DNA of 64,000 nucleotides from Thermodesulfobacteriota bacterium (GTDB taxonomy: Bacteria > Desulfobacterota_D > UBA1144 > Nemesobacterales > UBA2774). The stretch is from assembly GCA_040754335.1 (NCBI GenBank), contig JBFMCV010000002.1:62001-126000 (forward strand), in the 5' to 3' direction. Below are positions 29,896 through 52,575 of this stretch, one piece after another (the first letter of the stretch is position 1; each line of letters opens with the position of its first letter). Made by a program: the position numbers and the translations under genes. The notes beneath the pieces are model-generated. The model did no database searches, had not been told where the DNA came from, and saw nothing but the letters and a program-made list of their open reading frames with translations.

Positions 29896-29899
29896 ACCC

Positions 29900-34888: not shown

Positions 34889-34936
34889 AAGTAGTATCCC
34901 CTTGTTTTCCAAATTTAATTTGGAATCTCCAGAATT

Positions 34937-35771: not shown

Positions 35772-38108
35772 CTAAAATCCTGCCTCGCTGAACATAGTTG
35801 TATCTTTCATTCTGGTTTCTTCCGCAATGCCATACTTTTCATATAATCTCATAAGCTTTGGCTCCTCCGATTTTGGTATTACAAAGCCTTCCCTTGTTTT
35901 CTCGGTTTTAAGCTTGAGCTTCTTTCGTATAACGCTGCCTATCCACTTGGGGGTTATCTGCCTTGTGTAATCTTCCGCGTATTTTTCGATAAACTCCCTT
36001 GTTATGTCCTTTATAGAAGGCTCTTCATCCGATTCACTAAGGCTCCGAATACACTCAAGCACCTGGGCTTCCATCTCCATCCCGCGCTCAGTTACGATCT
36101 GCTTATGGTAGTCCCTGGCAATGCTTTTCAAATCCAACCGGGTTTTTTCATCCTCAATAACACTCAAGAGCGGAACAAATACCTGGTTCAGCCTCGGCTC
36201 GATAGTCCTGTCGACGAGCTCCGGATTCACTTTCCTTTTCCCCAGATTTCTAAACCGAAACATCAGGAGCTTATTTCGCAGACGCTCCGCCCTCTCTTTA
36301 TGCTCGTCAGTAAGGTTAATAGGAATGTCCTCTCTCAGTCTCCTCTGGCCCATCTCTTCAGTAATGCAGCGGGACTCTAAGGCTCTGTCCTCAAAAAACC
36401 CTCTCGTTGCCACTATCTTGGGACCGAATACCTGGTAAGCCTTCGGGCTGAACTCCTTTCCATTTATGGATTCGCTCCGCAGGACCGGGAAACCCTTCGC
36501 GTTTCCGTTGTTAAGAATTTTCACTATCTCTGCCTTTTCATCGCTCATCCTGAAATCTCCCTCGTCTATGATTAATGTACCTTTGAATATATTGAGTATT
36601 CGAAAGATTGGTGAGACGGTGGAAGCTCCGCTTGCAAATATCGGCTTATAGCAAAGAGAGCCTAGTGTTAATAGGAATCTTGTCTTTCCACTTCCCGCGT
36701 CTCCTATGACCCTCAGGTATGGGAGCTCTTTGAAGTCGTCATATATCCAGCTGAAAAGAACGTAGTATGAGGAGATGTTTTCAAACAATGGAGAGAGGTC
36801 AACATAATCGTGAATAAATGCCCTAATCTCTTCAATGAGCTTTTCCTCGGATTCGTACTCATCCGCTCCGGAGGGGAAAAGAATCACCTCGTTTTTGATG
36901 AGATTGTTTCGCGGAGAATAGGGAGAAAGATGAAGTTTATTTCCCATCGACAATCTGCTTTCGTAGCTGATCTCGCCTTCGTTAAAAACCGCAAATCCGG
37001 TTTCTTTCTTGTAAGGATCGTACACCATTTCGGCTATTCGTCCGTCTCCGAGGATTGCGGAGGGAATGTACACCGTAGAATCCTTCCCTTTGGATATAGC
37101 CTCGCTTTGGAAAGAAGGCGTTGTTACCCTTTTCGCATTCCCGACAAACTTCCTTGCATTTTCTATGGATTTCATCAAATATTGCTTTTTTCTGTTCCCC
37201 TTTTCTCTGTACTTTCCCGTCGTGGGATACTTCTCAAACACACCTACAATTTCATCTTCCCCGTAACCTTTGCTCAAAAGTGATGCAATTATGGCTTCGT
37301 CAGCTTCGGAACGGGAACGATAGGAGACGACTTCTCCTGTTCCGGGGTCCTTTACTTCCAAACTGTTATCCGGTCCCCGAAAAAAGTCTCCTGCTATCAG
37401 CTTTCTCACCCTTTCGCTTATGCCTAAGCTGTATACGTTTACAACCAGTATCTCTCCGTTAGTTTCACTCGATACAACCGGCATTTCGGGGAGCTCCTCA
37501 AGTACGGCTTCAACGATATCAGGGGTGATTAACGAGCTCTTGCCCAGACGCAGAAATTCGGAGAGCGGGATCGGCGTGAGACTCTTGCCGTCAAGAATCA
37601 CCCTTCGCTCAGGGGTATTCCTCAGACCTCCGAAATATGGAAGGTTTATATAGTTTCCGATTTCTCGTTCCTTCAGGTAATCCTGTTTAGGAAATACTTC
37701 CAGGGCAACCTTTAGCTTCAACAGGACGGAATTCAATACGTGTCTGATTTTTCGAGCTTCAACAGGCTCGGAGAAGAAAACCCAGATATGATACCCTTTT
37801 GACTTGGAGCGTTCGATGAATGTTGGCTTAAGACCAACATTCCACAGCTCTTCCCTGATATGATGGACTAATTCCAAATCATCCCTATCAATGTCTATGG
37901 CCCCGAACCGGCAAGTGCCGTTATCGAGCAGCGGATAAACGCCCAGGGAAACCTTTCCGATCAAATGCAGAAAATAGCTCCTTTGCGAAACCGGCTCTCT
38001 TACACACTCTCCGTGTACAGCGCCCCAGGCGTCTCTTCTTCCTGTGAAGAGCCTTTCAAATCTGTCCGTTATATTCCTGAGTTGGTCTCGTGTATAGTGG
38101 TTACTCAT
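35772..38108 (-). CDS. Primase-helicase: TOTE-type archaeo-eukaryotic primase fused to P-loop ATPase
   Basis: The protein has 778 residues. The N-terminal domain (about 1-190) is an archaeo-eukaryotic primase of the TOTE-conflict-system type: RFGAIDIDRD gives the metal ligands Asp72 and Asp74, and SKGYHIWVFF gives the nucleotide-binding His107. A central region (about 200-420) precedes an ATPase with Walker A GDAGSGKT (near 478), Walker B TLIIDEGDF and a C-terminal winged-helix part. It is built like a replicative primase-helicase of plasmids and integrative elements, able to prime and unwind. Its start overlaps the CHC2-type gene by 4 bases (ATGA). It points to autonomous replication of this element. 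Confidence 0.85.
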   Translation of the reverse strand: MSNHYTRDQLRNITDRFERLFTGRRDAWGAVHGECVREPVSQRSYFLHLIGKVSLGVYPLLDNGTCRFGAIDIDRDDLELVHHIREELWNVGLKPTFIERSKSKGYHIWVFFSEPVEARKIRHVLNSVLLKLKVALEVFPKQDYLKEREIGNYINLPYFGGLRNTPERRVILDGKSLTPIPLSEFLRLGKSSLITPDIVEAVLEELPEMPVVSSETNGEILVVNVYSLGISERVRKLIAGDFFRGPDNSLEVKDPGTGEVVSYRSRSEADEAIIASLLSKGYGEDEIVGVFEKYPTTGKYREKGNRKKQYLMKSIENARKFVGNAKRVTTPSFQSEAISKGKDSTVYIPSAILGDGRIAEMVYDPYKKETGFAVFNEGEISYESRLSMGNKLHLSPYSPRNNLIKNEVILFPSGADEYESEEKLIEEIRAFIHDYVDLSPLFENISSYYVLFSWIYDDFKELPYLRVIGDAGSGKTRFLLTLGSLCYKPIFASGASTVSPIFRILNIFKGTLIIDEGDFRMSDEKAEIVKILNNGNAKGFPVLRSESINGKEFSPKAYQVFGPKIVATRGFFEDRALESRCITEEMGQRRLREDIPINLTDEHKERAERLRNKLLMFRFRNLGKRKVNPELVDRTIEPRLNQVFVPLLSVIEDEKTRLDLKSIARDYHKQIVTERGMEMEAQVLECIRSLSESDEEPSIKDITREFIEKYAEDYTRQITPKWIGSVIRKKLKLKTEKTREGFVIPKSEEPKLMRLYEKYGIAEETRMKDTTMFSEAGF

Positions 38109-38416
38109 AGCCCTGCGTAGCGGCTAAGGATAACTTTGATCGTTTCTCTGAGGGTTAGGTTCTCGATGTCCATGATGAATCCCAGCACATCTCCATTCCT
38201 CTCACAGCTATCGCAATGGAAGTAAGAATTGATGCTGTTCACAACTATAGAGCCGTTGCATCCAATAAAGGGGCATTGCCCTATAAGCCCGTTTCCTGAA
38301 TCGAATAAGAGGGCATATTCATTCACCGCTCCTTCCAGTGATAAATTCGTCTTAATAGTTTCTATAATTGCAGGCAACAGATTATTGGGTTGGTATTCTT
38401 CAGAAAACCCCGTCAT
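38105..38416 (-). CDS. Stand-alone CHC2-like zinc-finger protein
   Basis: The protein has 103 residues. The segment GQCPFIGCNGSIVV..YFHCDSCERNGDVLGFIM has four Cys (48, 53, 68, 71) in the spacing and context of the DnaG CHC2 zinc finger (CPFH..., yHCFGCg.GGDvi.F), with Cys in place of His. In DnaG this domain recognises primer template. Here it is a separate gene translationally coupled to the AEP primase (4-bp overlap) and to the RuvC-like gene, so it probably serves as the template-reading subunit of the primase. Confidence 0.85.
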   Translation of the reverse strand: MTGFSEEYQPNNLLPAIIETIKTNLSLEGAVNEYALLFDSGNGLIGQCPFIGCNGSIVVNSINSYFHCDSCERNGDVLGFIMDIENLTLRETIKVILSRYAGL

Positions 38417-38970
38417 ATTGTTTTGTTATTAAAGTTTAAGTAGGTAGCGGCAGCTTTTCTCCTCTTTCTTTTTTGAAGATAAGCGAGAGCAAGCGTTAAC
38501 GCATCGAACATGTTCATCCAGTATTTATCCTTTTGAGTCCAGAGAATCCTTCCCTTGTGGGGAAGGCGCGCAGAGAGTTCGGGATATGTTGCAGCAACAA
38601 GGACGGCGGTGTTCATTTTTGTTGGTCTTCTGTCTTTAACGAGAAACTTTCTTGCGGTTGAGGATTCAATTTCATGGACCACGGTACCTTGTTTCCGGGC
38701 AAATTGGATAATGCGGTTTGCAAGTTTTTTAAGCATTGGATTTCCTATTCTTTCTGGGTGAGACAGTTTTCCCAAGATTACTACATCGGGCTTATAGGTT
38801 TTGACGAGATCAATCCCCGGAACTGTTGGCTTCCTCTGTTTTTCCGTTCTCTTCTTAAAATTCCGCACCCCGTAACGCATAAGCATATCGTCTTCAAGCA
38901 GGGCATAGCCTATTTCTTTAGTTCCAAGATCGAGCGCGAGTATGCGAATTTGTCTGGGAGCGGAGGACAT
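38413..38970 (-). CDS. RuvC-like Holliday-junction resolvase
   Basis: The protein has 185 residues with an RNase H-like fold. The pattern is Asp14 in ILALDLGTKEIGYAL, Glu100/Glu102 in VHEIESS and Asp156 in NMFDALTLALAYL, that is, the three or four acidic residues of RuvC-type resolvases. The intervening region is short. It would resolve branched DNA formed in replication or recombination. It overlaps the CHC2-type gene by 4 bases, so nuclease, zinc protein and primase-helicase form one replication operon. Confidence 0.82.
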   Translation of the reverse strand: MSSAPRQIRILALDLGTKEIGYALLEDDMLMRYGVRNFKKRTEKQRKPTVPGIDLVKTYKPDVVILGKLSHPERIGNPMLKKLANRIIQFARKQGTVVHEIESSTARKFLVKDRRPTKMNTAVLVAATYPELSARLPHKGRILWTQKDKYWMNMFDALTLALAYLQKRKRRKAAATYLNFNNKTI

Positions 38971-38992
38971 ACTAAAAACTGCTTATAAATTC

Positions 38993-39265
38993 TTACGACC
39001 TTTTAGCTCCTCCGAAGAGTGCTTTCTCCTTCTTTTCCAGATCCCTTCCGAGATCCCTGTACAAGTTCCCAAAAAGGTGCTCGACCGGAACATCGAGTAT
39101 GTAGGCAAGCTTCAGGGCATTCTCGAGACTGGGGAGAATCTTCCCGCTTTCCCACTTTGAAAACTGCGTCGAACAAGTATGTCCGAGTAGATAGGCTATG
39201 CGTTTTTGTCCTAGCCTCTTCCGTTTTCTGTATTTCCAGATGTGGTTAAGCGAACTAATCTCCAT
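38993..39265 (-). CDS. XRE-family transcriptional regulator
   Basis: The protein has 90 residues from the ATG at 39265. An upstream extension to 39355 would be rich in odd residues, and I reject it. Helix-turn-helix: GQKRIAYLLGHTCSTQFSKW (about 19-38), then ESGKILPSLENALKLAYILD. It is the likely master regulator of the replication operon that follows 23 bases downstream. A consensus promoter lies at 39516-39544, and a perfect palindrome (39338-39357) is in its leader. Similar palindromes recur at four other sites in this element, so this protein is a candidate for binding all of them. Confidence 0.78.
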   Translation of the reverse strand: MEISSLNHIWKYRKRKRLGQKRIAYLLGHTCSTQFSKWESGKILPSLENALKLAYILDVPVEHLFGNLYRDLGRDLEKKEKALFGGAKRS

Positions 39266-39337
39266 GACTTGAAACACTCTCCAAAGAAACGTATGGGTGA
39301 AGAATATCAGCCTCCGCGAATTCAGGGAGTCTGGGAA

Positions 39338-39357
39338 AGTTGCCTGAACAGGCAACT
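39338..39357. promoter_or_regulatory. Palindrome AGTTGCCTG-AA-CAGGCAACT (site 1 of 5)
   Basis: This is a perfect 9+2+9 inverted repeat in the leader of the XRE gene. It is the best copy of a motif with consensus TTGCCT-N4-AGGCAA found five times between 39.3 and 54.1 kb. Confidence 0.75.
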
Positions 39358-39416
39358 ATGAGGGGATATAAAAAAACTGCATAGAGCAGTCTGTTTTATT
39401 GAGCGAAGTTAAAAAT

Positions 39417-39440
39417 AAAGAGGAATTTCTTCCTCTTTTT
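39417..39440. terminator. Bidirectional hairpin terminator
   Basis: AAAGAGGAA/TTCCTCTTT is a 9-bp stem. It is followed by TT on the plus side and ATTTTT on the minus side. On the minus strand it lies between the promoter at 39.5 kb and the XRE gene, so it may attenuate that transcript. Confidence 0.6.
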
Positions 39441-39515
39441 GATCGACTCTTAGCTTCTTATGGGATTGTTAATTAAGTGTTTTTGGATTGATTATATGGC
39501 TAAAGAATTGAGCTT

Positions 39516-39544
39516 ATAATAACACATAGTAGATATTATGTCAA
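39516..39544 (-). promoter_or_regulatory. Promoter of XRE-replication operon
   Basis: TTGACA (39539-39544) and TATTAT (39516-39521) are spaced 17 bases on the minus strand. The 16 bases just upstream (39542-39557) match those upstream of the promoter at 51.3 kb in 15 of 16 positions. The leader to the ATG is about 240 bases. Confidence 0.7.
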
Positions 39545-39572
39545 TAGTAACAGAGGGTTATAACATTCTAGT

Positions 39573-39588
39573 TTGCTTCAATAGGCAA
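39573..39588. promoter_or_regulatory. TTGCC-type palindrome (site 2 of 5)
   Basis: TTGCTT-CAAT-AGGCAA pairs at five of six positions. Read on the minus strand, GGAAACTTGCCTATT aligns with the sequences at sites 3 and 4. It lies between the divergent XRE gene and the small gene before the recombinase. Confidence 0.65.
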
Positions 39589-39635
39589 GTTTCCCTCCCT
39601 ACCCATATTTCATCTTGTAGGCCATTGTGTAGGCA

Positions 39636-39809
39636 ATGACATCAACTAATGAAACTACCGAGAATACAAAAAGGAACCCGCGGAAAGGCAATAGCAATAA
39701 TAAAAATATAGAAAATGCCCTAAAACTTAGATTCCTGGCCTCAGATTTATCTGATGAAGAAAAAGAGGGGCTCTTATTTAGGGTATTTGATATTTTGCTT
39801 TATGAATGA
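39636..39809 (+). CDS. Small hypothetical protein upstream of serine recombinase
   Basis: This is a 57-codon frame, polar and Asn/Thr/Lys-rich at the N-terminus, with a helical C-terminus (ALKLRFLASDLSDEEKEGLL). It sits about 210 bases before the recombinase and 50 bases after a TTGCC-type palindrome. The ribosome site is weak (AGG too near the ATG). It could be a small partner such as a recombination directionality factor, but nothing proves it is expressed. Confidence 0.45.
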   Translation: MTSTNETTENTKRNPRKGNSNNKNIENALKLRFLASDLSDEEKEGLLFRVFDILLYE

Positions 39810-39900
39810 CCGGCTGTAATCAGATAAGAAAGATAACTTAATCGTTTAGCTTTCTAAAAGCGTATTTGTCACTTTATACAGTTTTGCTAATATGAGAAAA

Positions 39901-39969
39901 GGCAGACTAGAAGGCATAATCTATATTAATTGCCTATAAAAGTGGGGTAACAGTGCCTTCTAGTCTGCC
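39901..39969. repeat. 16-bp perfect inverted repeat upstream of serine recombinase
   Basis: GGCAGACTAGAAGGCA (39901-39916) and its exact complement (39954-39969) flank 37 bases, 51 bases before the recombinase ATG. Large serine recombinase attachment sites are imperfect palindromes next to the gene, so this is a candidate att site; a regulatory hairpin is the alternative. Confidence 0.6.
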
Positions 39970-40020
39970 GACAAAGAAGCGAATACTGTTGCCCCTCTTT
40001 TGTTATAACTTAACCCAATT

Positions 40021-41859
40021 ATGGATCTTCATAAGCAAATTAAAAAACTTAGAGCAGCCATATATATCAGAGTGTCAACCGATGATCAACTCAAAGGCTT
40101 CAGTCCCGAATTCCAGCTCGAAGACTGTAGACGTGCCGCCGTGGAAAGGGATGATTGTACACTGAAAGGTGTGCATATTTTTGATGATAGCAAGTCAGGA
40201 TCAAGCGATGACCGGCCGGGCTGGAAAAAGCTCATGGAGACCGCAAAGCAGGGAGAAATAGACGTTATCTACTTTTGGAAGCTGGATAGAATGATGCGCA
40301 GCGAACGCCATTTTTATAAAAATGAAGAGGAGCTAGAGAAATTAAATATACAACTTAGGTTTGCTACACAGAACTTGGATGATCCATTTACCCGAGCTAT
40401 CCAGGTCGCAGTCGCTGCGGAAGAAAGAAGAAAAATATTGGAGCGTACGCGGCGAGGTAGGGAAATGGCTGTAAGAGCAGGGAAATGGGTTATGGGCACT
40501 CCCCCGTATGGATATAAATACAACGGAAAGACTAAAAAGCTTGATATAAATGAGGAACAAGCGCAGTGGGTTAAAAAATTCTACGAATGGTTAGTCAACG
40601 AAAAGTGCTCTCTTAAAGAAATCGCACGACGTGCGAACGCTTTTGGGGTACCTACTTGGACCCAAAGCATAAAGACAAAGAGAAAGACATCAAAAATATG
40701 GTGGCCGAGGACATTGGGCAGAATACTCACAAACGAAACTTATACAGGAAAAGCGTATTTTAGGAAATACAAGAGAAATCATAAGGGTTTGAAAACGTAT
40801 GAGAATGAAGATTATATGAGGGCTAAAACTGAATGGATACCCATAGAAGTTCCTCAAATTATCTCGAAGAATCTTTTCGACAAAACCATTGTTCAACTGA
40901 GAAAAAATAGTGAATTCGCAAAAAGAAAGAAAATACGTTCCTACATGTTTAGCGGACTTGTTTATTGTTCAAAATGTGGCTTCAAGCTAAAGGGAAACTA
41001 TGCTAACCCAAGTAGTCGCTCCGCCAAGGGTTCGCGCTGTTATGTTGGTTATGTCCCGAAAAATCATGTAGGTAACACACGCAGATGCCGTTATTGCGGC
41101 GCTATAGCAGAAACCAGACTTATGCCAATTTGGAATACTTTAGAAAACATTCTAATGAGCCCGGACACAATTTATGACAAACTCGATAAATACACCGGAG
41201 AGAACAAAAAAGATGGGTTATTAAATAAAATCGTTCTAATTGATAAGGAATTGAAATCATTGAATGAGGAACAAGAAAGAACAAATATAGCATTTCTAGA
41301 AATTTGCTCCATAGATGAAAATGAATACAAGCAACGTATTAAATCTATCAAGAGTAGGCAGGTGACACTGGAGCATGAGAGAAGAAAATATAATGATTAC
41401 ATCATTTCTGAAGAAGAAAGAATTAAACGGGTAGATACTATTACTAACTTATACCAAAAAATCAAATATAAAATTACTCATGCGTCTTATGAAACGAAAT
41501 CAAAAATACTTCACATATTTGTAGATAGAATTGATTTGAATCTTGATACGAGCGCAGCATTAGTTAAATTCAATATTCCTATGGATGTACATCATAATTT
41601 TGAAGGACAATTGTTGGGACGGCAGTCTCTCAAAAAAGAGGAAATCACCTCCGATAAATGGCTTAACGACAACAATGAGACTAAAGATTTCGGCAACTTT
41701 TACCTAGATGTACAGGTCCCACTTATTTCCTTTAAAGAGATCCAGAAGGTCACCACTCCTTCACACTCCAGATACTATAAGGGTGAAAAAGACATGCCGC
41801 TTTTAAAACTAACCCGCAAGAAAGCCGAGGATAAGGAATTAAGGGCTTATTTTCAATAA
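40021..41859 (+). CDS. Large serine recombinase (resolvase/integrase family)
   Basis: The protein has 612 residues. Catalytic domain: RAAIYIRVSTDDQ with nucleophile Ser19, WKLDRMMR and the conserved Arg cluster (EERRKILERTRRG near 138-150). Then come the recombinase domain (GTPPYGYKY, GRILTNETYTGKA), a zinc ribbon (YCSKCGFKL ... CRYCGA, about 318-360) and a long coiled coil (about 395-490). The last 80 residues (from about LLGRQSLKK) are an extension that recurs as separate copies at 44.8 and 48.0 kb. It is probably the integrase of this element or of the cargo array. Confidence 0.93.
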   Translation: MDLHKQIKKLRAAIYIRVSTDDQLKGFSPEFQLEDCRRAAVERDDCTLKGVHIFDDSKSGSSDDRPGWKKLMETAKQGEIDVIYFWKLDRMMRSERHFYKNEEELEKLNIQLRFATQNLDDPFTRAIQVAVAAEERRKILERTRRGREMAVRAGKWVMGTPPYGYKYNGKTKKLDINEEQAQWVKKFYEWLVNEKCSLKEIARRANAFGVPTWTQSIKTKRKTSKIWWPRTLGRILTNETYTGKAYFRKYKRNHKGLKTYENEDYMRAKTEWIPIEVPQIISKNLFDKTIVQLRKNSEFAKRKKIRSYMFSGLVYCSKCGFKLKGNYANPSSRSAKGSRCYVGYVPKNHVGNTRRCRYCGAIAETRLMPIWNTLENILMSPDTIYDKLDKYTGENKKDGLLNKIVLIDKELKSLNEEQERTNIAFLEICSIDENEYKQRIKSIKSRQVTLEHERRKYNDYIISEEERIKRVDTITNLYQKIKYKITHASYETKSKILHIFVDRIDLNLDTSAALVKFNIPMDVHHNFEGQLLGRQSLKKEEITSDKWLNDNNETKDFGNFYLDVQVPLISFKEIQKVTTPSHSRYYKGEKDMPLLKLTRKKAEDKELRAYFQ

Positions 41860-42043
41860 GACATAAGTATTTTTGATAAGATAAAAATAACAAGAACACA
41901 ACTCATCGTTTCAAGCAAGGTTGATAATAGGAATATTGGGCTTATATACTTTCATATAAGCTGGAATTGAGGAGTTAATGATTATAGGGACTTATGGCCC
42001 ATCTTCCGGCTAATATGGGTAAGACTTTAATCATAACGCCTTT

Positions 42044-43840
42044 ATGACAGGCACAGCTCAGAAAACAACAGAATGTCAGAACTGTGGGGAGAGTGCTAAC
42101 CGGCACTTTCCCTATAATGCAAAGCTTTTTAGGAAAAATATAAGCAATATAGAAAATGGAGAGATATTAGTATGTGAGTCCTGCAGAGATTATTTTGAAA
42201 GAAGAAAAGCCTATTCAGAAAATGTACTTACCTCCAAATCTGACAAAAGACTTATAGTAGCCGGACCTGGCACAGGAAAAACATATACTTTTCAGGAAGT
42301 ATTAAAAACTATCCCAAGGGGACAGAAAGCTATTGTATTCACTTTGATAAACAACTTGGCAAATGATTTGAGAGAAGATTTATCTACTTTAGAAAACGAC
42401 TTAATTAAGGTGTCCACTTTTCACGGATTCTGTAGAGAATTATTACATTCAAAAATTGGTCTACAAGACATAACTAAAGATTTTAGATACTTTCCCTTAC
42501 TTCCTTTTTTGATTGAACAAGATGCACTCATACTAGACTTTGAATTCGGTCGTCCAGACTTTCACGCGAGCTTTGCAAATCTAAACCAAAATGCAGCTCA
42601 GGAATTTTATCTGTCTAGAGCGAGTTACTACAATTCTGCTAGCCATGATGATGCAGTTTATCGAGTTTTTAAGTATTATGAGCGAAATCAAAACCGCATC
42701 CCTTCTTTTGGAATAGTGATTGCTGATGAATATCAAGATTTTAACCGACTTGAGTCTTCGTTTATATCATTACTTACGAATAGGAACAAAGCTCTTATTG
42801 CGGGAGATGACGATCAAGCACTTTATGGTTTTCGGCACGCATCAAAAGATTATATTAGACAACTTTATTCCGATGCAACATACGAAATACTTGAGTTACC
42901 GTTTTGTAGCCGTTGTACACCTGCAATTGTAGAGGCGACTAATTATTTTGTTAAAGCAGCCCAGGGTCTCGGACTATTAGATAAAAGGATACCTCGGGAG
43001 TTTGAGTGTTACTTGCCGGACAAACATCGCGAACACAAAGCATATCCAGAGATTGAAGTCGCTCACTGTTCGCGCCCGGAAACGAGCTTTAAGTATATAA
43101 AAGATCGGATAGTTGATTTAACCGCGAGCGAAAATCTTACTTCTTATGCGGGTAAAGATATACCCTTTCTAATAATGGGGGCGGAATCTGGATACCGAAT
43201 TAAGAAAGTTGCCGAATATCTACAAGAGAATCTAGATGAGGAAATATATTCAATAGAGACCCCTGAAGAGAGGGACCAACTGGAAATTGAACATGGATAT
43301 AAAATCTTACACAAGGGAGTAAATACGAATTTAGGTTGGCGTATAGTAATGCACTTTGATCCGCCCGAGGATATAAAGAGCATAATTTCAAAGACATATG
43401 AAAGCGATATTGCAATTGAAGAAATGCTAACTCAAGAATATATTACTAGACACGGAGACGAAATACGTACTTTATTTGAAAATCAAGAGAAACCAGTGAA
43501 AACAGAAGAGTCTGAAGCGGAGCCAAACAAAATACGAATAAGACTTACTAATTTTTACGGTTCAAAAGGGTTATCAGCACTGCATACCTTTATTATCGAT
43601 CTTAACAATTATTCTTTTCCTGCGAACCCAGATGTAATAACGGATGATGAAATATGTAAGTTTCTCGTGGCACTTACAAGAGCAAAAAATTCATGCACAC
43701 TAGTCGTATTCAAAGTGTTCGACAAGACAATTGGAAAGACAGTAGATAGACCCTCTAGATTTATAGAGATGTTACCGGCCCATATCTTAAGACATAAATA
43801 TTTTAAAGTTCAAAAAGGCAACTTGGTAGAAAAAGGCTAA
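42044..43840 (+). CDS. UvrD/Rep-like superfamily 1 helicase with N-terminal zinc ribbon
   Basis: The protein has 598 residues. A zinc ribbon-like start (CQNCGES ... CESCRDYF, about 8-50) precedes SF1 helicase motifs: Walker A AGPGTGKTYTF (near 74-84), motif Ia, motif II as IADEYQDFN, motif III GDDDQALYGFR, and motif VI near VALTRAKNS. It translocates on DNA with ATP. No nuclease domain is seen. It is the first cargo gene after the recombinase and converges with the TIGR02391-type gene. Stand-alone SF1 helicases of this size are common defence partners; the partner here is not proven. Confidence 0.85.
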   Translation: MTGTAQKTTECQNCGESANRHFPYNAKLFRKNISNIENGEILVCESCRDYFERRKAYSENVLTSKSDKRLIVAGPGTGKTYTFQEVLKTIPRGQKAIVFTLINNLANDLREDLSTLENDLIKVSTFHGFCRELLHSKIGLQDITKDFRYFPLLPFLIEQDALILDFEFGRPDFHASFANLNQNAAQEFYLSRASYYNSASHDDAVYRVFKYYERNQNRIPSFGIVIADEYQDFNRLESSFISLLTNRNKALIAGDDDQALYGFRHASKDYIRQLYSDATYEILELPFCSRCTPAIVEATNYFVKAAQGLGLLDKRIPREFECYLPDKHREHKAYPEIEVAHCSRPETSFKYIKDRIVDLTASENLTSYAGKDIPFLIMGAESGYRIKKVAEYLQENLDEEIYSIETPEERDQLEIEHGYKILHKGVNTNLGWRIVMHFDPPEDIKSIISKTYESDIAIEEMLTQEYITRHGDEIRTLFENQEKPVKTEESEAEPNKIRIRLTNFYGSKGLSALHTFIIDLNNYSFPANPDVITDDEICKFLVALTRAKNSCTLVVFKVFDKTIGKTVDRPSRFIEMLPAHILRHKYFKVQKGNLVEKG

Positions 43841-43886
43841 TTATCAAATTTTTAATGTGTTAGTCCAACAATGAACAGTCCTGCCC

Positions 43887-44693
43887 TCAATAGCCTGTTC
43901 TTATGGCACCATCAAGCTTTCTATGAGCAAAGGAAGCCATGGTTAATAGTTCTAAAGCGTCACGTTCCTCGATTTTCCATTTTATCTTAGGTGCATGCGC
44001 TGTAGTATTTCTAAACATGCCGAATATGCCTTTTAATAGATTTGCAAAGCCAACTTGCTCCATCTTTTCAGTTTCTGTGCGAAGACTGTTGATTGCTAGT
44101 ACCGGCTTCTGCCCAACCAAAGTAGCTTCAACCAACTGGGTCCCGTCTTTATCTTGACCAGACATTTCTCTCAATCTATCAGCGATGCTCTTAGTCGCCT
44201 CAAACACTGCATGAAAGTAATTTTCTTGTAAAAACTCCGCACGGCAGAAATTTAATACGTAATAATGAACTCCTCTATCCGATAATTTCTTTTGAAGCGC
44301 ATTAGCTCTCAGATGCGCATCATCTAAAGTACTAACGAGTGTCGCTTGTACAATCTTCCCATCTGCTCTCAACTCATATCCCTGTAAAGCAAGGATGACA
44401 TTCAATTGGTCCTTTGATCGATTAAAATATTCCCTATTATGTACATATCTAACGGGGTCCATCACATTCTGAATAAACGCAAACACATTATTTGAGCATC
44501 GATCTTTTTCTTGCTTATTCTTTAACGCGGAAAACAATCTATGTCTTTTAGTAATAGTGGGCTCCATATCCTCAATACCTGAAGAATTTAGTAACTTCCC
44601 AATCTCTGTACCAGTAAGCCCAGAATCGGTGTCTCCAAAAAGATCACAGATTGCCTGAAGAGCATTATCGCTTAACTTTGGGATACTTGCCAT
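43887..44693 (-). CDS. TIGR02391-family (Ymh-like) protein with HEPN-type motif
   Basis: The protein has 268 residues from the ATG at 44693; a longer TTG start is possible. The C-terminal half has the TIGR02391 pattern (FHAVFEATKSIADRLREMSG ... LLKGIFGMFRNTTAHAPKI). FRNTTAH matches the R-x4-6-H motif of HEPN RNases, so it may be an abortive-infection-type ribonuclease. The N-terminal part is a helical region (ALQAICDLFGD). It is transcribed toward the helicase gene with a 46-base gap, so the two may be independent cargo or an antagonistic pair. Confidence 0.78.
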   Translation of the reverse strand: MASIPKLSDNALQAICDLFGDTDSGLTGTEIGKLLNSSGIEDMEPTITKRHRLFSALKNKQEKDRCSNNVFAFIQNVMDPVRYVHNREYFNRSKDQLNVILALQGYELRADGKIVQATLVSTLDDAHLRANALQKKLSDRGVHYYVLNFCRAEFLQENYFHAVFEATKSIADRLREMSGQDKDGTQLVEATLVGQKPVLAINSLRTETEKMEQVGFANLLKGIFGMFRNTTAHAPKIKWKIEERDALELLTMASFAHRKLDGAIRTGY

Positions 44694-44794
44694 ACACTTA
44701 ATTATATACAAATTCTAATTATCCAATCAGATGTGGTAGTTATCAGGAATTAGCATACCCACACCTTATCACAATAGAGCAAAGTATTGGAAAC

Positions 44795-44810
44795 TTGCCC
44801 ATCTAGGCAA
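44795..44810. promoter_or_regulatory. TTGCC-type palindrome (site 3 of 5)
   Basis: TTGCCC-ATCT-AGGCAA pairs at five of six positions. It lies 9 bases before the start of the recombinase-tail reading frame copy B and is embedded in the longer shared sequence GAAACTTGCCCAT. Confidence 0.65.
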
Positions 44811-44819
44811 CTCTATCCG

Positions 44820-45065
44820 ATGGAACGGCAGTCTTTCAAAAATCAGGATAACACCCACGAAAAACGGCTTAACCACAATAATGAGGGTAAAGATTTAGGT
44901 AGTTTTTCGCTTGATGTTAGGGTGCCGTTAATATCTTTTGAAGAGGTCCGGGAGGTAACCAACCCTACACGGTCGAAGCATTATAGAGGAGCAAAAGACT
45001 TACCTCTAAGGAAGCTCATTGCCAAGAAAGCTGAAGATAGGAGCTTTAGGGCTTATTACCAATGA
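44820..45065 (+). pseudogene. Serine recombinase C-terminal tail, copy B (81 codons)
   Basis: The frame matches the last 81 residues of the recombinase at 40021-41859 along its whole length and ends at the same point (RAYYQ versus RAYFQ). Shared cores include RQSxKxxx, LDVxVPLISFxExxxVT and KKAEDxxxRAY. The homology begins at GGAACGGCAGTCT, close to the recombinase GGGACGGCAGTCT. The frame is intact with an ATG, and a palindrome sits just upstream, so it could be a small gene rather than a dead remnant. It marks the boundary between two cargo modules. Confidence 0.75.
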
Positions 45066-45141
45066 CATTTGTGACTTAGAGACTATATCCCCAATGAAGG
45101 ATACTAGACTAATGGTGTTGACAATCTCACAAGCAGTTCGG

Positions 45142-47814
45142 TCACCATCCAGCTCTTGCCGATTTCTTTGCATCCTTGCGAGCTTCCCTTTCTTTCCGGG
45201 CAGCCTTTTGAGAGGATCTAAGCTCCTTTTCCAATTCGTCAAATTCGTTCCGTAGTGCAGATAAGTCGTCTAATTTGGGAGGGCTTTCTCTCTGCAAGTC
45301 ACTTCTATTATGAGCGATGATCATTTCCGATAGTTTGCCATGCATATTTACAATCCTAAGAGCCAAAGACTGATCATATATCGCTTCTTCAAGATTCTGC
45401 ACTTTAATATGATCGTCGTATCTTTGAACCGTTCCTGCAAAAAGTACATCTTCAATCAATGCCTCACAAGCACTACGTAAATAACTAAATGCTGTATCTA
45501 GTGCGTGTTCCTGATCTTTGGCACCGAGAGATTCATAATCTTTTACTGCTGCTTGAGAATCGTCTTTCAAACTCTTTAAGTCGGATATTTTGGGGCTAGT
45601 ATTATCTTCCATACATCCTGGTATGCCATTTATTTGCCTCATCCAATGCGCAACAACAGGAATATTGTTTTTCTCCGCATGTTTAGTCAACTGACTCATA
45701 AAGACAATATCATGTGTAAGAACTACGACCTGCCGATGTCCAGCCTCAATTGCCAATCTTTGAGCTATCTTATCCTTCCGCTCATGATCTAATGAAGTCA
45801 CCGGATCATCGAATATAATCCCGCAATTATTTTTATCAAGCTGAACCTCTGTCAAAAAGTCCGCAATTGAACACGCATTTTGCTCACCTTCACTCAGTAT
45901 CTGGCTTGGATTGTAGTCCTCAGCGAAATCAAGCCTATATTCTTTTACAGTAGTGCCATGCTCCCCACTGGCATTCATAATCAGATTAAAATCACATCCC
46001 AGCATTGCAAGTTCCTGATTAAATACGCCTTTGTAATCTTGAGCTACACCCACCAGAAATGACTCGGTTCTCTTTTTTGTTGTGGCCATCTTTATACCGG
46101 CAAAACTAACTCCATTGGCTTTAGATAACCAATGTAGAAATGCAATATATTCTAATCCAGCATCCTTAACAGCTGTAACCTGTTTTTTATGCTTGAGGGC
46201 ATTTAATTGAGCGATAAGCGTTGCGATTTCACCGCTTGGGTCAACAAGTCTTGACTCCTCGGTTGTTTTTGAATTGACGAGAGTATCGATTTTGGTAAGG
46301 TCAACATCAGGTACATCGTCACGATTTATCTCCTGCAGGTTACCTAATTTAGAGGTCCAGTCATCCAACACATTCGCTAGTGTAGAGAACTGATCTTTTA
46401 TTTGTGCTAAATATTTAGGATCGTCTTCACTAATTACTTTAACGCCTGCATCTGTTGCAAGGAATTTTGGATACATCATCTTTATATATTGCAAATTCTG
46501 TAATAAGGCAGATTGGTTTCGAGTTAATTCGGATAGTTCGCTCTCAGCTCTACTTTCAAGGAACTTCCAATATTTATGAAAGAGTTCATTGGCATTTTTC
46601 TTAAGTTTCTGATGACATAACATACAATGAGTCGGCTCTTTATTTTCATTTATTGCCTTCTCTTTTTCATAAAGAGTTTTAGCTGCACTAATCAATGCTT
46701 TCCACTCAGCACTTCCGATTGTTTTCACAATGCCATCGTCAAAACTCTTAACACTTAGACCTTCTATTATCATTTTCTTTTCCAATATTTCTTTAAGAAG
46801 TTGGTTAGCTTCCTCCTTTTTTGCCTCAGTAAATTGGTCTGTTACGTTTTTCAATAGCGCTTTAAATGCTTGTAGATTTTGGCGATCAGTAGCTAGTTGC
46901 GATTTCTTTTTGGGAATATCTAGTTTTTTCTTTGCCTCGATGAGCTCTTGGAGTTCAGTTATTTTTTGACCATCAACATTGGCATCGAAGTTTGCATGCA
47001 ATAGAAAATCAACCTCTTTGGTGTGGCCGGCAATCGCCTGGCAGAATATTGCGGTAGAAGAAGTTGCGTCATCAAGGAACATTGACTGAAATGGATTATC
47101 TTTTTTCTTTGCATTCTTTTCGTTATTAAGTTTTTCTTCTAGCTGTGAAATAGTAACAGCAACCTTATCGAATATCTTGATTTGGGCTGGAGTGAAATTT
47201 ACATTGTTTGATTGGTCAAGGTGTATCAAAACACTTTCTGAGTCAAAGACAGAAAAGCGTTTGAGGTCGTCATAATTTTCACCAAGTGAATATTCGATCT
47301 CGTTTACGTTGCCCAAACCATCATCCACAACGAAAGTCGCTTTTGCTTCTGAATCTAACACGGAAGTAGTTCGTACGTTCGGTAATATCTCACGTTCTCC
47401 TCGCGAGAAACACGCATTACATAAAAGACGACCAACTCCACTCTTACCGCTACCGTTGCCCCCGTAAACAAGAGTTAGGTTGGGTCCAAACTTTACTGAA
47501 CAATCTTTTGAAAGAGCATTGACGTCTACAAAGTCCTTAACCTCTAATATTTTCATTTTTCTCATACCGCCAGGTACTTCCGGAGCAACAACGATCTCAT
47601 TCTTAAAGGATATATCGCGCTTATTCGGCAAAGAATCAATCAAGCCGAGGTATTCAGAAAGGTACTGATAGCACTGATCAATATCCTCATCGGTCAATGA
47701 ATCTTTTTCGAGATTGATCTTCCAAACGTATTGTTCCCAGTATGGCTTATTGGATAGCCAGGCTTCCAAAGTTTCGATTGGCGTGCCTTTATCACTTGTC
47801 ATAATATTTTCCAC
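45142..47814 (-). CDS. AAA ATPase with zinc-hook motif, RloC/PrrC-like
   Basis: The protein has 890 residues. Walker A is GGNGSGKS (118-125), the signature is LSEGEQ (640-645), Walker B is GIIFDDP with the D-loop SLDHE (665-678), and a His switch follows at VVVLTHD. Two long coiled coils (about 225-390 and 410-600) flank CMLC (Cys397, Cys400), a Rad50-type zinc hook. This is the layout of RloC. The C-terminal part has YLRSACEALIED (Arg780, Glu784), compatible with the Arg-x3-Glu of the PrrC/RloC anticodon nuclease, with several His downstream. Other AAA defence ATPases share this fold, so tRNA cleavage is inference. It is a single cargo gene between tail copies B and C. Confidence 0.8.
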   Translation of the reverse strand: MENIMTSDKGTPIETLEAWLSNKPYWEQYVWKINLEKDSLTDEDIDQCYQYLSEYLGLIDSLPNKRDISFKNEIVVAPEVPGGMRKMKILEVKDFVDVNALSKDCSVKFGPNLTLVYGGNGSGKSGVGRLLCNACFSRGEREILPNVRTTSVLDSEAKATFVVDDGLGNVNEIEYSLGENYDDLKRFSVFDSESVLIHLDQSNNVNFTPAQIKIFDKVAVTISQLEEKLNNEKNAKKKDNPFQSMFLDDATSSTAIFCQAIAGHTKEVDFLLHANFDANVDGQKITELQELIEAKKKLDIPKKKSQLATDRQNLQAFKALLKNVTDQFTEAKKEEANQLLKEILEKKMIIEGLSVKSFDDGIVKTIGSAEWKALISAAKTLYEKEKAINENKEPTHCMLCHQKLKKNANELFHKYWKFLESRAESELSELTRNQSALLQNLQYIKMMYPKFLATDAGVKVISEDDPKYLAQIKDQFSTLANVLDDWTSKLGNLQEINRDDVPDVDLTKIDTLVNSKTTEESRLVDPSGEIATLIAQLNALKHKKQVTAVKDAGLEYIAFLHWLSKANGVSFAGIKMATTKKRTESFLVGVAQDYKGVFNQELAMLGCDFNLIMNASGEHGTTVKEYRLDFAEDYNPSQILSEGEQNACSIADFLTEVQLDKNNCGIIFDDPVTSLDHERKDKIAQRLAIEAGHRQVVVLTHDIVFMSQLTKHAEKNNIPVVAHWMRQINGIPGCMEDNTSPKISDLKSLKDDSQAAVKDYESLGAKDQEHALDTAFSYLRSACEALIEDVLFAGTVQRYDDHIKVQNLEEAIYDQSLALRIVNMHGKLSEMIIAHNRSDLQRESPPKLDDLSALRNEFDELEKELRSSQKAARKEREARKDAKKSARAGW

Positions 47815-47972
47815 TATCCCACATAGTTAATGATATTGATATAACTACCACAAACTAACGTAATTTTAAAGACCACAATTTTGATTAATATTTTAGTAAG
47901 ATATCACCTAACTACATGGGATCATTACAAATATGAATCAAATGCTCAGCGCGAGTACTCTTTACATAGTCA

Positions 47973-48209
47973 GTGAAACTTGCCCATAAACACAACTCTT
48001 ACCGAGGAGGCGGTTGTCTTTCAAAAAAACGAGAAAACAACCCTGAAAAATGGCTTAACAACAATGATCGCTCTGAGAATTTGAGCAGTTTTTCGCTTGA
48101 TGTGAGGGTTCTAATAATTAGCTTTGAGGAGCTCCGCCTCTGTTTCTGCAGTGGTTACAAAGCAACTGTTTATACCGACGTCCCTTTGTATAAGCTCCCT
48201 AAAAAGTAG
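47973..48209 (+). pseudogene. Serine recombinase C-terminal tail, copy C (degenerate)
   Basis: This is the third copy of the recombinase tail. KWLNNNDRSENLSSFSLDVR matches copies A and B, but after FEELR the sequence drifts and rejoins only at VPLYKLPKK before an earlier stop. Its upstream DNA (GAAACTTGCCCAT...CAACTCT) aligns with copy B, not with copy A, so B and C share a more recent common form. It lies between the RloC-like and the sigma-54-activator-like genes. Confidence 0.7.
47980..47995. promoter_or_regulatory. Decayed TTGCC-type palindrome (site 4 of 5)
   Basis: TTGCCC-ATAA-ACACAA keeps the left half only. The flanks align with site 3. Confidence 0.5.
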
Positions 48210-48271
48210 ACAAGCGATTGTTCTGGAAGATATACAATCATAAAAATAGAACTTGGCCTATAATTATAAGT

Positions 48272-50359
48272 TTAAGCATTCAAAAGTCCGCGGTTTATAA
48301 GACAATCAAGTATTTCTTCGTAGGTAATTTTTTCATACGATTCTTGTTTACTATCTTTTAGTTCTTTCAATCTGCAGAGATCATTAATGAAACTATCTAA
48401 TGCTCTAATGTTATAGTCCCATCTCAGGTTCATTAGTAGCTTTAAACCTTTGATATCGATATATCTAATTATTCTCGGGGATTCCTTTTTTTTCTTTGCT
48501 TCCACTTTCTTCTTTTTGTTATGTTCTCTAAGGAAATGATTAATGAGAAGAGGAATATCTTCTTTTCTTTCTCTTAATGGAGGAATAGGGAAATAGAAAC
48601 GATCTACTCTGGAAATAAAGGCGCTGCTGAATCCATCACGTTCTAGCTCATCAAGCGATTTATTGCTCGCAAACACTAACAATAAATTAACTTTTATAGG
48701 ACTTAGACCTTTTTTAGGATATATTTCCCGTGGTGATTCAAGAACGCGCAACAACTGATCAACTAATTCTTTTTGAATCTTATCTATTTCATCTAGAAAA
48801 AGAGTGCCAAAAAACATGTGCGCCTTCATAAATTCACCTGGATTAGTATCGTCGCCCCAGAGAATTTCTTCAGTTATTTGTGCACAGTTCAAGGTCCTGA
48901 AGTTAAACCGTAATTTGTTTTTATTCCAATCCCTCGATTTGATCTTATCACCGTGATTTAATATGTCGCATTCATTATAAAAACTAAGATAAGACTGATA
49001 ATCCTTTTGAACTTGGAGCTTAGAATCTTTAATCTGTTTATTAATCGCCTTTGCGTTCCATGAACGAGGACTAATCAGGTGACATATTTTGGCAAGCTTC
49101 TCTTTCCCGCTTCCAGGCTTACTATAGAAAAATATAATCCCCGGTTCTTGGTCCTTTGGAATTACATTTTTAATTCGAACTAATATATCTAAAATATCTG
49201 GATCAGCTGTGCAGAAATTTTCATATATATCGTTAATCTCTTTGTCAATATATTTCCTTCCCTTTTTAATATGTTTTTCTAGCTTATCTTCAAGATTGTC
49301 TCTGCATTCACTCAACTCTATCGGAGGTTCCTCTTGAATTTCCGAACATAAACGAATCAGATTTTCTAGTACGGCTATATTAATACGGCGTGGTGTTTTA
49401 ATGCTGACCCATTCTAGTTCAAGCAGTCTTGCTGATATTTGTCGGAATATATATTCGAGACGTCGAACATTATAATCAATTACAGGTTCCTCAAATGCCC
49501 CACAATAAGTTGAAATTTTGTTTAAAAATCGCTTTGTTGGGAAATTCGTTAAATTTATAGGAATGATTAAATGACAAAACGCTTTAGGATTTTCATGAGC
49601 ATCTTGTTTTTTTCGCATTATAGAATAACAATATGTGAGCAGAAAAACCCTTAATAAAATTGATTTATCTTCCAGCCTCAACCTTCGTAATTCCTTTTCT
49701 TTGGTAACCAACGAATTATTTGTCAAATGATTACTAAATTCTTCAAGAAGACTGTTATAATCTTTAACAAATTCGCCCAATTTTTCTGCATCTTTACCAA
49801 TTATAATTTCAACGAAGTTCTCCTTATTGTATTCTCCGCGAAGCTTTGCTTCTAATCCTTTCCAGATGCTGTGACTAATATTGAAAATCGATTTAGAATT
49901 ATTATTACCTTTGTCAGAGCCAAAATGAACTTGGAGGGAACCCCTAAGATCATCGCAATATAATAGGCTTAATTCACGCAAGGCAACGCGGTCAGTCCGC
50001 AAGTTCTCTATATTTGCTTCTTCGACTCCCGACAAATTAAAATCAGGGTGACCAGCTTTAAAGGGGTTGTTTTCCTCTGGATATCTACATCTCATATAGT
50101 CCCCGAAATTTGGGCTTATGTATTGAAAGGACGAAGCAAGGTGCTTTGTTTCTTTTAGAATGATCTGAATAGAGTTATTATGCGATAATAACATGTATAT
50201 CCGTTCTCTAACCAAATTCTCATATGCATATCTATCCTTCTTGTACAAATATTCTTGAGCTTCTTTCTGGAAATCGGGATCATCTATAAGTTTACTTGTC
50301 CGTTCAAGTAACGTTAGAAAGTCTTTATCTTTCTCTAATTCTTTATCCCCGGGTTCCAT
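48272..50359 (-). CDS. AAA+ ATPase resembling sigma-54 activators, unusual N-terminus
   Basis: The protein has 695 residues from the ATG at 50359. A start at 50386 falls inside a hairpin. The N-terminal 390 residues are helical and unfamiliar. The C-terminal AAA+ domain looks like a bacterial enhancer-binding protein: Walker A-like FYSKPGSGKEK, GTLFLDEIDKIQKELVDQLLRVLE, SRVDRFYFPIPPLRERKEDI. The GAFTGA loop that contacts sigma-54 is not present; the matching place reads GDDTNPGEF. No C-terminal Fis-type HTH is obvious. It probably does not activate sigma-54 promoters. Related proteins occur in defence islands, so it may be a sensor ATPase. It is preceded by an operator and a terminator-like hairpin. 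Confidence 0.75.
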   Translation of the reverse strand: MEPGDKELEKDKDFLTLLERTSKLIDDPDFQKEAQEYLYKKDRYAYENLVRERIYMLLSHNNSIQIILKETKHLASSFQYISPNFGDYMRCRYPEENNPFKAGHPDFNLSGVEEANIENLRTDRVALRELSLLYCDDLRGSLQVHFGSDKGNNNSKSIFNISHSIWKGLEAKLRGEYNKENFVEIIIGKDAEKLGEFVKDYNSLLEEFSNHLTNNSLVTKEKELRRLRLEDKSILLRVFLLTYCYSIMRKKQDAHENPKAFCHLIIPINLTNFPTKRFLNKISTYCGAFEEPVIDYNVRRLEYIFRQISARLLELEWVSIKTPRRINIAVLENLIRLCSEIQEEPPIELSECRDNLEDKLEKHIKKGRKYIDKEINDIYENFCTADPDILDILVRIKNVIPKDQEPGIIFFYSKPGSGKEKLAKICHLISPRSWNAKAINKQIKDSKLQVQKDYQSYLSFYNECDILNHGDKIKSRDWNKNKLRFNFRTLNCAQITEEILWGDDTNPGEFMKAHMFFGTLFLDEIDKIQKELVDQLLRVLESPREIYPKKGLSPIKVNLLLVFASNKSLDELERDGFSSAFISRVDRFYFPIPPLRERKEDIPLLINHFLREHNKKKKVEAKKKKESPRIIRYIDIKGLKLLMNLRWDYNIRALDSFINDLCRLKELKDSKQESYEKITYEEILDCLINRGLLNA

Positions 50360-50371
50360 AACAAAAATAAT

Positions 50372-50394
50372 CCCCTGATTGAACATATCAGGGG
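50372..50394 (-). terminator. Terminator-like hairpin in the leader of the AAA+ gene
   Basis: CCCCTGAT/ATCAGGGG is a perfect 8-bp stem with a 7-base loop. On the minus strand it is followed by ATTATTTTTGTT and then, 12 bases after the stem, the ATG at 50359. It would act as an attenuator or as a block to read-through from 50.5 kb. Confidence 0.6.
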
Positions 50395-50400
50395 TAAATT

Positions 50401-50452
50401 TATTGTTGGTACAACAATATAATTGTATATTTAATCATGAATTGGTTATCAA
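50401..50452 (-). promoter_or_regulatory. Promoter and downstream palindromic operator of the AAA+ gene
   Basis: On the minus strand TTGATA (50447-50452) and TATACA (50424-50429) are 17 bases apart. A perfect 8+3+8 palindrome, TATTGTTG-GTA-CAACAATA (50401-50419), covers the expected start point. It has GTTG-N3-CAAC, the reverse order of the operators at 34.9 kb. Confidence 0.65.
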
Positions 50453-50514
50453 ATCAAGGGGGTAATATAGCGTTAACAACTCGGGTAAAGTATAATGGGT
50501 TGTATTATCAGATT

Positions 50515-51153
50515 TCAAAAATCATTCCTTAACACCGGTGCTAATCCTAAGTCTTTACTGCGATCGTTCAGTTTAACTTGAGAGATGACTAAGCCTACAT
50601 TGTTAAAGCTACCGGCCGTCACTATTCTTCCGTCCCAGCCCGCATCCTTACAAAGGACTTCCGAAGATTCAAAAAGTCGCTTCCCATCACTTACAAAGTA
50701 ATAGAGAAAAGTCATATATACAATTTCAACTGCACTAGGTAGCTCTTCATCACCTCTAAGTAGGCGTATCTGCTCATGATAAGATTTAGTGCGTGAATTC
50801 GGTAATATAGATTTTCTAATCAAGTACCAACGAAGCGAGCAAGTCTTTTTACTTGCGAAGTTCTCATCAATATACCAATAATCAACATAGGAAAAGCACG
50901 GTTGTTCATCAAAATCAACACCAAATGTTTCCCGTATACTTGCAATAGTAATAAGGTTTCCAGAATTATCTTCGGGTACTCCAGGAAAAAGAATGTGGCT
51001 CTTTTTACATGTTTGAAGCGTACCATCAGAGTAAGGGATATGCTGAAGTGCATATCGGGCTTTTCTAGAGATAGATACCGATAAAATTCTGGCAACATCG
51101 TCTATTGCAATGAAATTTTTACCCATTATTTCTCTGGCTTCTCTTTGTGTCAT
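50515..51153 (-). CDS. Protein of unknown function
   Basis: The protein has 212 residues, soluble. The first 30 residues (FIAIDDVARILSVSISRKAR) have a helix-turn-helix flavour like phage or ICE regulatory proteins. The rest is a mixed alpha/beta domain with several aromatic clusters (FSYVDYWYID; YMTFLYYFVSDGKRLFES). I do not recognise a family. Its expression seems tightly controlled: a promoter with a 21-bp palindrome in the spacer lies at 51275-51303, and a structured 115-base leader hides the ribosome site. Confidence 0.65.
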   Translation of the reverse strand: MTQREAREIMGKNFIAIDDVARILSVSISRKARYALQHIPYSDGTLQTCKKSHILFPGVPEDNSGNLITIASIRETFGVDFDEQPCFSYVDYWYIDENFASKKTCSLRWYLIRKSILPNSRTKSYHEQIRLLRGDEELPSAVEIVYMTFLYYFVSDGKRLFESSEVLCKDAGWDGRIVTAGSFNNVGLVISQVKLNDRSKDLGLAPVLRNDF

Positions 51154-51268
51154 GTTGTGCCCTCTAATGAAGAGGAAGCTGTAATACAGCTATTTTGAGA
51201 GCACGAATCCGATGCCCTCATAAATGCTGTAGGCATCAGACTCCTCATAAAATTGATTTTTAACGTCT
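51154..51268 (-). promoter_or_regulatory. Structured 5' leader sequestering the ribosome site
   Basis: Three hairpins precede the start: GATGCC/GGCATC (51211-51237), AGCTGTA/TACAGCT (51177-51191, one-base loop) and CCTCT/AGAGG (51161-51175). The last stem contains the Shine-Dalgarno AGAGG, 7 bases before the ATG. Translation is therefore likely to be regulated. It does not match a riboswitch class I know. Confidence 0.6.
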
Positions 51269-51274
51269 TACCTA

Positions 51275-51303
51275 TATATAGCATATATACCATATATATG
51301 CAA
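51275..51303 (-). promoter_or_regulatory. Promoter with 21-bp palindromic operator in its spacer
   Basis: On the minus strand TTGCAT (51298-51303) and TATATA (51275-51280) are 17 bases apart. The spacer is nearly all operator: GCATATATA-CCA-TATATATGC (51281-51301), a perfect 9+3+9 palindrome. The upstream 16-mer (51301-51316) is almost identical to that at 39542-39557. Confidence 0.7.
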
Positions 51304-51359
51304 TAATAACAGAGGGATACGATCTTCTGAATATGGATCTTAGAATTAAGGTATAAAAC

Positions 51360-51382
51360 AGGACGGTATTAATTACCGTCCT
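51360..51382 (-). terminator. Terminator at end of the 51.4-54.1 kb operon
   Basis: AGGACGGTA/TACCGTCCT is a 9-bp perfect stem with a 5-base loop. On the minus strand TGTTTTAT follows. On the plus side TTAGTTTTATTTTT follows, so it may work both ways. Confidence 0.75.
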
Positions 51383-51425
51383 TTAGTTTTATTTTTAGGT
51401 ATATTTAGTTGTTAAAGATCCTTTC

Positions 51426-51713
51426 TTAAGCTGTACTCTTCTTCCACATTCCCAAAAGCTCAGCCAAGATGACCATCAGGATGTGCTTGCAGATATTTTC
51501 GTGCACAAACCTGTCAGGGCAGGAGCAAAAATATTTCCCTGAGCCGTTGATCCCTACTGCATACTCTTTCGTCTCATTTAAAACATACGCCCTTGTCTCG
51601 TGTGCCTCTCGTTTAAGGATATTTATCTTATACCTTCCTTCCATCACGGCCTGCAGTGCCCTTCCCACACGAGCTTCCTCCGCTTTGAGAATAAGCTCAC
51701 ATTCTGTTTTCAA
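51426..51713 (-). CDS. SWIM zinc-finger protein
   Basis: The protein has 95 residues. The SWIM motif C-x-C-x(n)-C-x-H is visible as YFCSCPDRFVHENICKHIL (about 64-82). Upstream is a short beta segment (YAVGINGSGKYF). SWIM fingers bind DNA or proteins. It overlaps the end of the coiled-coil gene by 17 bases and is the last gene of an operon with the coiled-coil, SSB-like and DUF932-type genes. It probably helps DNA replication or recombination of the element. Confidence 0.85.
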   Translation of the reverse strand: MKTECELILKAEEARVGRALQAVMEGRYKINILKREAHETRAYVLNETKEYAVGINGSGKYFCSCPDRFVHENICKHILMVILAELLGMWKKSTA

Positions 51714-52140
51714 GGTGTATCACCTCGCCATCGGATGAGTTGACTAAACAACTCTCAATTCTCACGAGCGTTACGATCTGCTCAAGAACTCTAAGTTTCT
51801 TTTCCAGGAGCTCGACCTCAACCCTCATAAATCTTTCCTGTTTCTCAAGATGATTGTACTGCACCTTGAGTGTCCAATATTCAGAATTAATTTTCAGTCT
51901 TTTTTGCAGTTCAGCATTTCTCAAAGTTTCGTTTGAATATGCTTTCTTTCCATTGCCGTCGGATTCGGTTGAAACGTCGTATGCAACGTCAGATTCAATT
52001 TCCTTCATCTTCTCCATGATCAACAGTTTCTCTTCAAAGAGAATTACGAAGTCCATTTTCTTTCTCTGAAAAGATTCAATAAACTCCTTCAGCTCATTCT
52101 TTAACCCAACCGCTTCAGAAATGATATGCTCTCTATACAT
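51697..52140 (-). CDS. Coiled-coil hypothetical protein
   Basis: The protein has 147 residues, almost wholly helical with heptads (about 5-50 and 75-135). It has no Cys and no known domain. It is located between the SSB-like and SWIM genes, 11 bases after the former, and its end overlaps the SWIM gene. It is probably a structural or bridging subunit in the same DNA-handling operon. Confidence 0.7.
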   Translation of the reverse strand: MYREHIISEAVGLKNELKEFIESFQRKKMDFVILFEEKLLIMEKMKEIESDVAYDVSTESDGNGKKAYSNETLRNAELQKRLKINSEYWTLKVQYNHLEKQERFMRVEVELLEKKLRVLEQIVTLVRIESCLVNSSDGEVIHLENRM

Positions 52141-52151
52141 AGCATCCTCCG

Positions 52152-52547: not shown

Positions 52548-52575
52548 GCAGACCTCCTTATTTATGAAATTTATA

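Follow-up and report, generated by a model that had tools for sequence, protein, structure and literature searches.

Repeated 3' ends of a large serine recombinase gene point to a cargo hotspot, possibly built by insertion at that gene, in an ICE-like element

In integrons, cargo is arrayed beside the recombinase gene, the newest module is expected nearest to it, the attC sites fold as single strands, and insertion preserves the types of recombination site. In serine integrase systems attP recombines with attB, while the attL x attR reaction requires a directionality factor. The staphylococcal cassette chromosome (SCC) region behind orfX/rlmH is partitioned by 15-bp repeats of the gene end, which start in the codons encoding EAYHK (PMC4723332). 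For genomic islands in tRNA and tmRNA genes, the Islander description takes a restored target end together with a displaced fragment as the marks of the island borders (PMC4383910). In phage Mx8, attP lies inside int, and the integrase gene acquires a new 3' end when recombination takes place within it (PMC6070905). Engineered integrase-RDF fusions (PMC5737554) offer a comparison for a change at the C-terminus that could affect activity or directionality.

The locus described here lies in a window of 64,000 nucleotides (the whole stretch of DNA analysed). It contains a large serine recombinase gene, the 3' end of which recurs downstream:

40021-41859, plus strand: large serine recombinase with Resolvase and Recombinase domains (PF00239/PF07508); residues ~531-612 are tail A
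41614-41859, plus strand: tail A, the recombinase 3' end, in frame
44820-45065, plus strand: displaced tail B, frame intact, stop as in A
48006-48209, plus strand: displaced tail C, degenerate; similarity between B and C starts at 47975

The presence of three tails had been claimed by a sequence-only reading of this DNA, and was confirmed by an unbiased direct-repeat scan of the window, by alignments and by a genome-wide protein search. The last ~82 codons of the recombinase are found again at 44820-45065 and, incompletely, at 47975-48209. The alignment of tails A and B is gap-free over 243 nt (71% nucleotide and 57% amino acid identity); their local alignment begins at 41615/44821, and both frames share the end stop. 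Tail C resembles B from 47975 to ~48137 and contains a stop within the aligned frame. At the DNA level, the limits of the homology, which the sequence-only reading had left to be aligned, are thus the starts at 41614/44820, the shared stop, and a fading of C after ~160 nt. Against the 3.26-Mb genome the tail protein gave exactly three matches, A, B and C, with E values of 4e-51, 9e-27 and 9e-9, which excludes chance. The tail had no Pfam or PADLOC domain match, and its AlphaFold model was uninformative (pLDDT 57).

The copies form a decay gradient: A is intact and fused to the gene, B is an intact orphan and C is degenerate. Comparison of A with B gives a dN/dS of 0.28, with 18/20/35 differences by codon position, indicating that these two tails diverged while protein-coding. 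Such constraint is what would be expected if each tail had once completed a working recombinase. A small open reading frame upstream of the recombinase gene (39633-39809, plus strand), spotted by eye, is a candidate directionality factor.

Cargo genes follow each of the tails:

42044-43840, plus strand: module A, SF1 (UvrD/GajB-like) helicase, by profile matches
43887-44711, minus strand: module A, TIGR02391/PD-Lambda-3_B-like protein (TIGR02391 6.6e-35; PADLOC PD-Lambda-3_B 1.2e-89)
45142-47814, minus strand: module B, PDC-S06-like SMC/AAA ATPase (PADLOC PDC-S06 1.2e-128)
48272-50386, minus strand: module C, sigma-54-activator/RtcR-like AAA ATPase, by AAA domain match

Most of the cargo names proposed earlier hold: the profile searches returned TIGR02391, a UvrD/GajB-like SF1 helicase and a sigma-54-activator/RtcR-like AAA domain. 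The ATPase previously called 'RloC-like' has its best match in PADLOC PDC-S06. A protein 65% identical to this ATPase is encoded at 11675-14368 of locus L123, in a genome of a distant lineage (G097). The 15.9-kb contig there carries no tail, H-bearing DNA (see below) or recombinase, and its homology to the island is limited to the PDC-S06-like gene. This cargo is therefore not tied permanently to the tail and can travel by other routes; judged by its sequence, the 65%-identical copy points to a recent horizontal transfer of the PDC-S06-like defence candidate. Relatives with the same cargo and no tail had been named as evidence against a modular array, and this one counts in part only, since the copy is distant. 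Near both island ends (39542-39560 and 51301-51319) lies a direct repeat, CAATARTAACAGAGGGWTA, with exactly two copies in the genome; it overlaps minus-strand promoter-like sites at both positions. As a candidate mark of the island ends it was not seen at the right island edge in the related element of genome G006.

The earlier remark that B and C have common upstream DNA without counterpart at A was also correct: similarity between them reaches ~30 nt further 5' (44790/47975). Within this DNA we found a 21-nt motif, H, with the consensus AANTTGCCYNNNNAGGCAACT and a palindromic core (TTGCC..GGCAA). It precedes tails B and C and does not precede A. The H sites in the window are:

44792-44812, plus strand: before tail B, candidate left half-site
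47977-47997, plus strand: before tail C, motif match
39571-39591, minus strand: inverted, at the left island boundary; homology to the G006 backbone ends at 39601
39337-39357, plus strand: conserved backbone, in the leader of the XRE-RuvC-primase operon
54117-54137, plus strand: conserved backbone, upstream of a coupling-protein-like gene (54167-55363)

A narrower pattern, GAAACTTGCCYATNNANNCAA, has three exact matches in the genome, namely both H-tail sites and the inverted copy at 39573; with two mismatches it occurs at window position 16602. The pattern TTGCCTNNNNAGGCAACT is found in its own genome in this element only, and in three of 242 other genomes, G006 among them.

Relatives of the element were sought with the backbone protein encoded at 52736-53854, which matched at 82% in G006 and at 51% in G022 (short contig). 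The G006 backbone corresponds to window positions 26875-39600 and 51355-55347, mostly at 72-81% nucleotide identity, and flanks a different 13.4-kb island. Three H positions are conserved between the two elements: in the XRE-RuvC-primase leader, 5' of the coupling-protein-like gene, and inverted at the left island edge. The serine recombinase of the G006 island is unrelated to that of the window, and a search at E 1e-20 did not detect it in any other genome of the phylum. About 0.6 kb downstream, immediately behind an H, the 3' tail of this recombinase reappears (91% over 66 nt). A further H lies 62 nt past this copy and leads into the beginning of a window-type tail, which then decays. The remainder of the island carries OLD/AriA-like, HD-nucleotidase-like, DnaJ-domain, Rad50-like and Mre11/SbcD-like genes. 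Since tails of both families are displaced behind H in G006, two recombinase families have used this hotspot, and because the pattern recurs there with another recombinase, a one-off duplication is unlikely. The G006 recombinase also has a small frame upstream, differing from that at 39633-39809 in the window.

In tail B the homology opens with an ATG, and the frame of 81 codons is intact. This would suit a tail that began as a small gene in its own right, perhaps for a directionality factor, and became joined to the recombinase at A. Such an origin is very improbable: a start codon is absent at the tail start in C and in both displaced copies of G006, which speaks against it despite the ATG of B. 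Moreover, the tail was not found separately, or at all, in 57 other genomes of the phylum, plasmids, phages or IMG/VR. On the same evidence the mobile small gene, one of the two origins offered by the sequence-only reading, does not stand. The search in IMG/VR, plasmids, phages and up to 387 genomes likewise gave no tail relatives elsewhere, and only weak recombinase relatives except for locus L008 (42% identity, aligned over residues 11-517 only). As for the element, IMG/VR gave a distant match only. The neighbours of the L008 recombinase are XRE, RuvC-like and Toprim-like genes; those in the window are XRE, RuvC-like and primase genes (partly assigned by eye).

How specifically H marks the displaced tails was assessed with a matrix trained on the six conserved backbone H sites of the window and G006 only. 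The next-best places were those before tails B and C (22.1 and 20.5 bits) and before the displaced tails of G006 (22.6 and 17.3 bits, the latter scoring 18.8 bits on the opposite strand), and the next unrelated places in the two elements reached 13.8 and 11.6 bits. The best control scores were 18.4 in 60 recombinase loci and 20.6 in 20 shuffled windows; one of the four H scores lies inside this range, so the weakest H rests on its position, not on its score. For each of the four displaced copies, H and the tail start are ~12 bp apart or less. Its distance to the first shared tail base is ~8-10 bp in the recombinase family of the window and 3-4 bp in that of G006, and this difference indicates that the crossover is not at one fixed position.

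For a recombinase half-site it is odd that H is common to two unrelated recombinases. Given that it precedes gene starts across the whole element, H might act as an operator, in addition to any role in recombination or in place of it. Taken further, H would be the operator of a regulator (e.g. the XRE protein of the element) at minus-strand cargo promoters, its closeness to the tails would be secondary, and the tails would stem from duplication or homologous exchange. The palindromic core fits an operator, as does the location of H upstream of the XRE operon, the coupling-protein gene and the starts of the TIGR02391 and PDC-S06 genes. Nevertheless we judge this explanation unlikely, as the close spacing to the tail start in four of four copies includes the one at G006 position 20349, which has no adjacent minus-strand gene start, and tails of two unrelated recombinases both start at H. 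The leader of the XRE operon (39544-39265, minus strand) has a promoter-like site, two terminator-like hairpins (39438-39417 and 39392-39374) and H 5' of the start codon, an arrangement that could be attenuation control. A promoter-like match (9/12) at 44839-44810 (minus strand) spans the start of tail B and H and faces the TIGR02391 gene; chance alone would give a similar number of such matches.

Our main reading, to which we give a probability of roughly 0.56, is that the island is a hotspot for cargo within an ICE-like mobile element and grew as modules were inserted site-specifically at the resident recombinase gene, at its 3' end. The evidence base consists of two loci, the window and G006, both in one host family. 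According to this model the crossover would take place inside the recombinase gene, around 41605-41614, and the site of an incoming module would consist of H and a replacement tail. The product would be the recombinase body with a new tail, then the cargo, then H with the old tail. The recombinase would thereby remain full length, and old tails would be left as boundary marks, the older ones further from the gene. We infer catalysis by this recombinase, a circular module intermediate and the order of insertion, and it is plausible that the serine recombinase drives the array. Against the model counts that two sites with the same right half would have to recombine, which departs from the standard attP x attB reaction. 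In its favour we count a 34-nt dyad (94% match) at 5204-5237 of L008, within the recombinase gene 3' end (residues 527-538), which lies close to the residues aligning with the proposed crossover. Stepwise addition at the recombinase 3' end, the other origin offered by the sequence-only reading, is largely supported by the decay from A over B to C, by the independent pattern in G006 and by the H before each displaced tail.

Alternatively, whole elements may have been stacked, each module bringing its own recombinase through ordinary attP x attB integration; later deletion of the older recombinase bodies would have left the tails. Such elements do pile up at one site in SCC regions (PMC4723332), and use of the G006 hotspot by two recombinase families is consistent with stacking. 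We nevertheless regard it as rather unlikely: in this region the recombinase protein matches nothing but the tails, so that no remnants of recombinase bodies were found, the gaps between cargo and H are merely 80 and 160 bp, and the deletions would have had to end beside H four times. We also considered whether the H-tail joints arose by inversion of the segment from the inverted H at 39571 to the A site, and rejected this because at B and C the sequence left of H belongs to the cargo side and is not recombinase sequence in inverted orientation.

Recurrence of the recombinase tail was tested in 55 recombinase ORFs from 54 loci and was found in six: the window, G006, L101, L085, L092 and L077. 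In each of the other four an RNA gene lies in or beside the recombinase 3' end (tRNA-Ser in L101, tmRNA in L085, tRNA-Ala in L092 and tRNA-Ile in L077). L101 is the classical case, with a displaced tRNA fragment as the direct repeat; in L085, L092 and L077 the main repeats are inverted. L085 and L092 have 96-nt identical inverted copies of the recombinase 3' part upstream of the gene. The island in the window (39000-52000) gave no tRNA, tmRNA or Rfam match. A shared motif followed by a long protein-coding tail is thus not the usual arrangement.

If insertion at the recombinase gene is correct, the locus shows the ordered collection of defence modules by a mobile element, with past insertions still readable. 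It would also be a testable case of cargo capture exchanging the C-terminus of the recombinase that possibly performs it. A bolder version, which we hold to be possible though doubtful, is an integron-like system with the 3' end of the large serine recombinase gene itself as insertion site. Each captured module would rewrite the C-terminal ~80 residues, so that uptake could alter activity or directionality.

Among known systems, SCC likewise has large serine recombinases and modules stacked at the 3' end of a gene that stays intact, and partitioning of modules by repeats of the target gene end is found both in the window and in G006. However, the insertion is not at the 3' end of orfX/rlmH; here the recombinase gene's own end is replaced and repeated. 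The repeat is 15 bp in SCC and ~80 codons here, and the cargo here is anti-phage-like. Islands in tRNA and tmRNA genes are alike in the restored end and the displaced fragment, as in the control L101 (serine recombinase, tRNA-Ser), whereas the repeat in the window is not of an RNA gene but protein-coding and under constraint. In Mx8 the end is swapped upon prophage integration, while here several module borders carry the recombinase end. Integrons likewise array cargo modules beside a recombinase gene, but their IntI is a tyrosine recombinase and the enzyme here a serine recombinase (PF00239/PF07508); moreover, the site lies inside the recombinase gene and the cargo is mostly on the opposite strand. 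On our main reading this locus would work like SCC arrays, tRNA islands and Mx8, and what appears to set this locus apart is the recombinase gene itself as the target.
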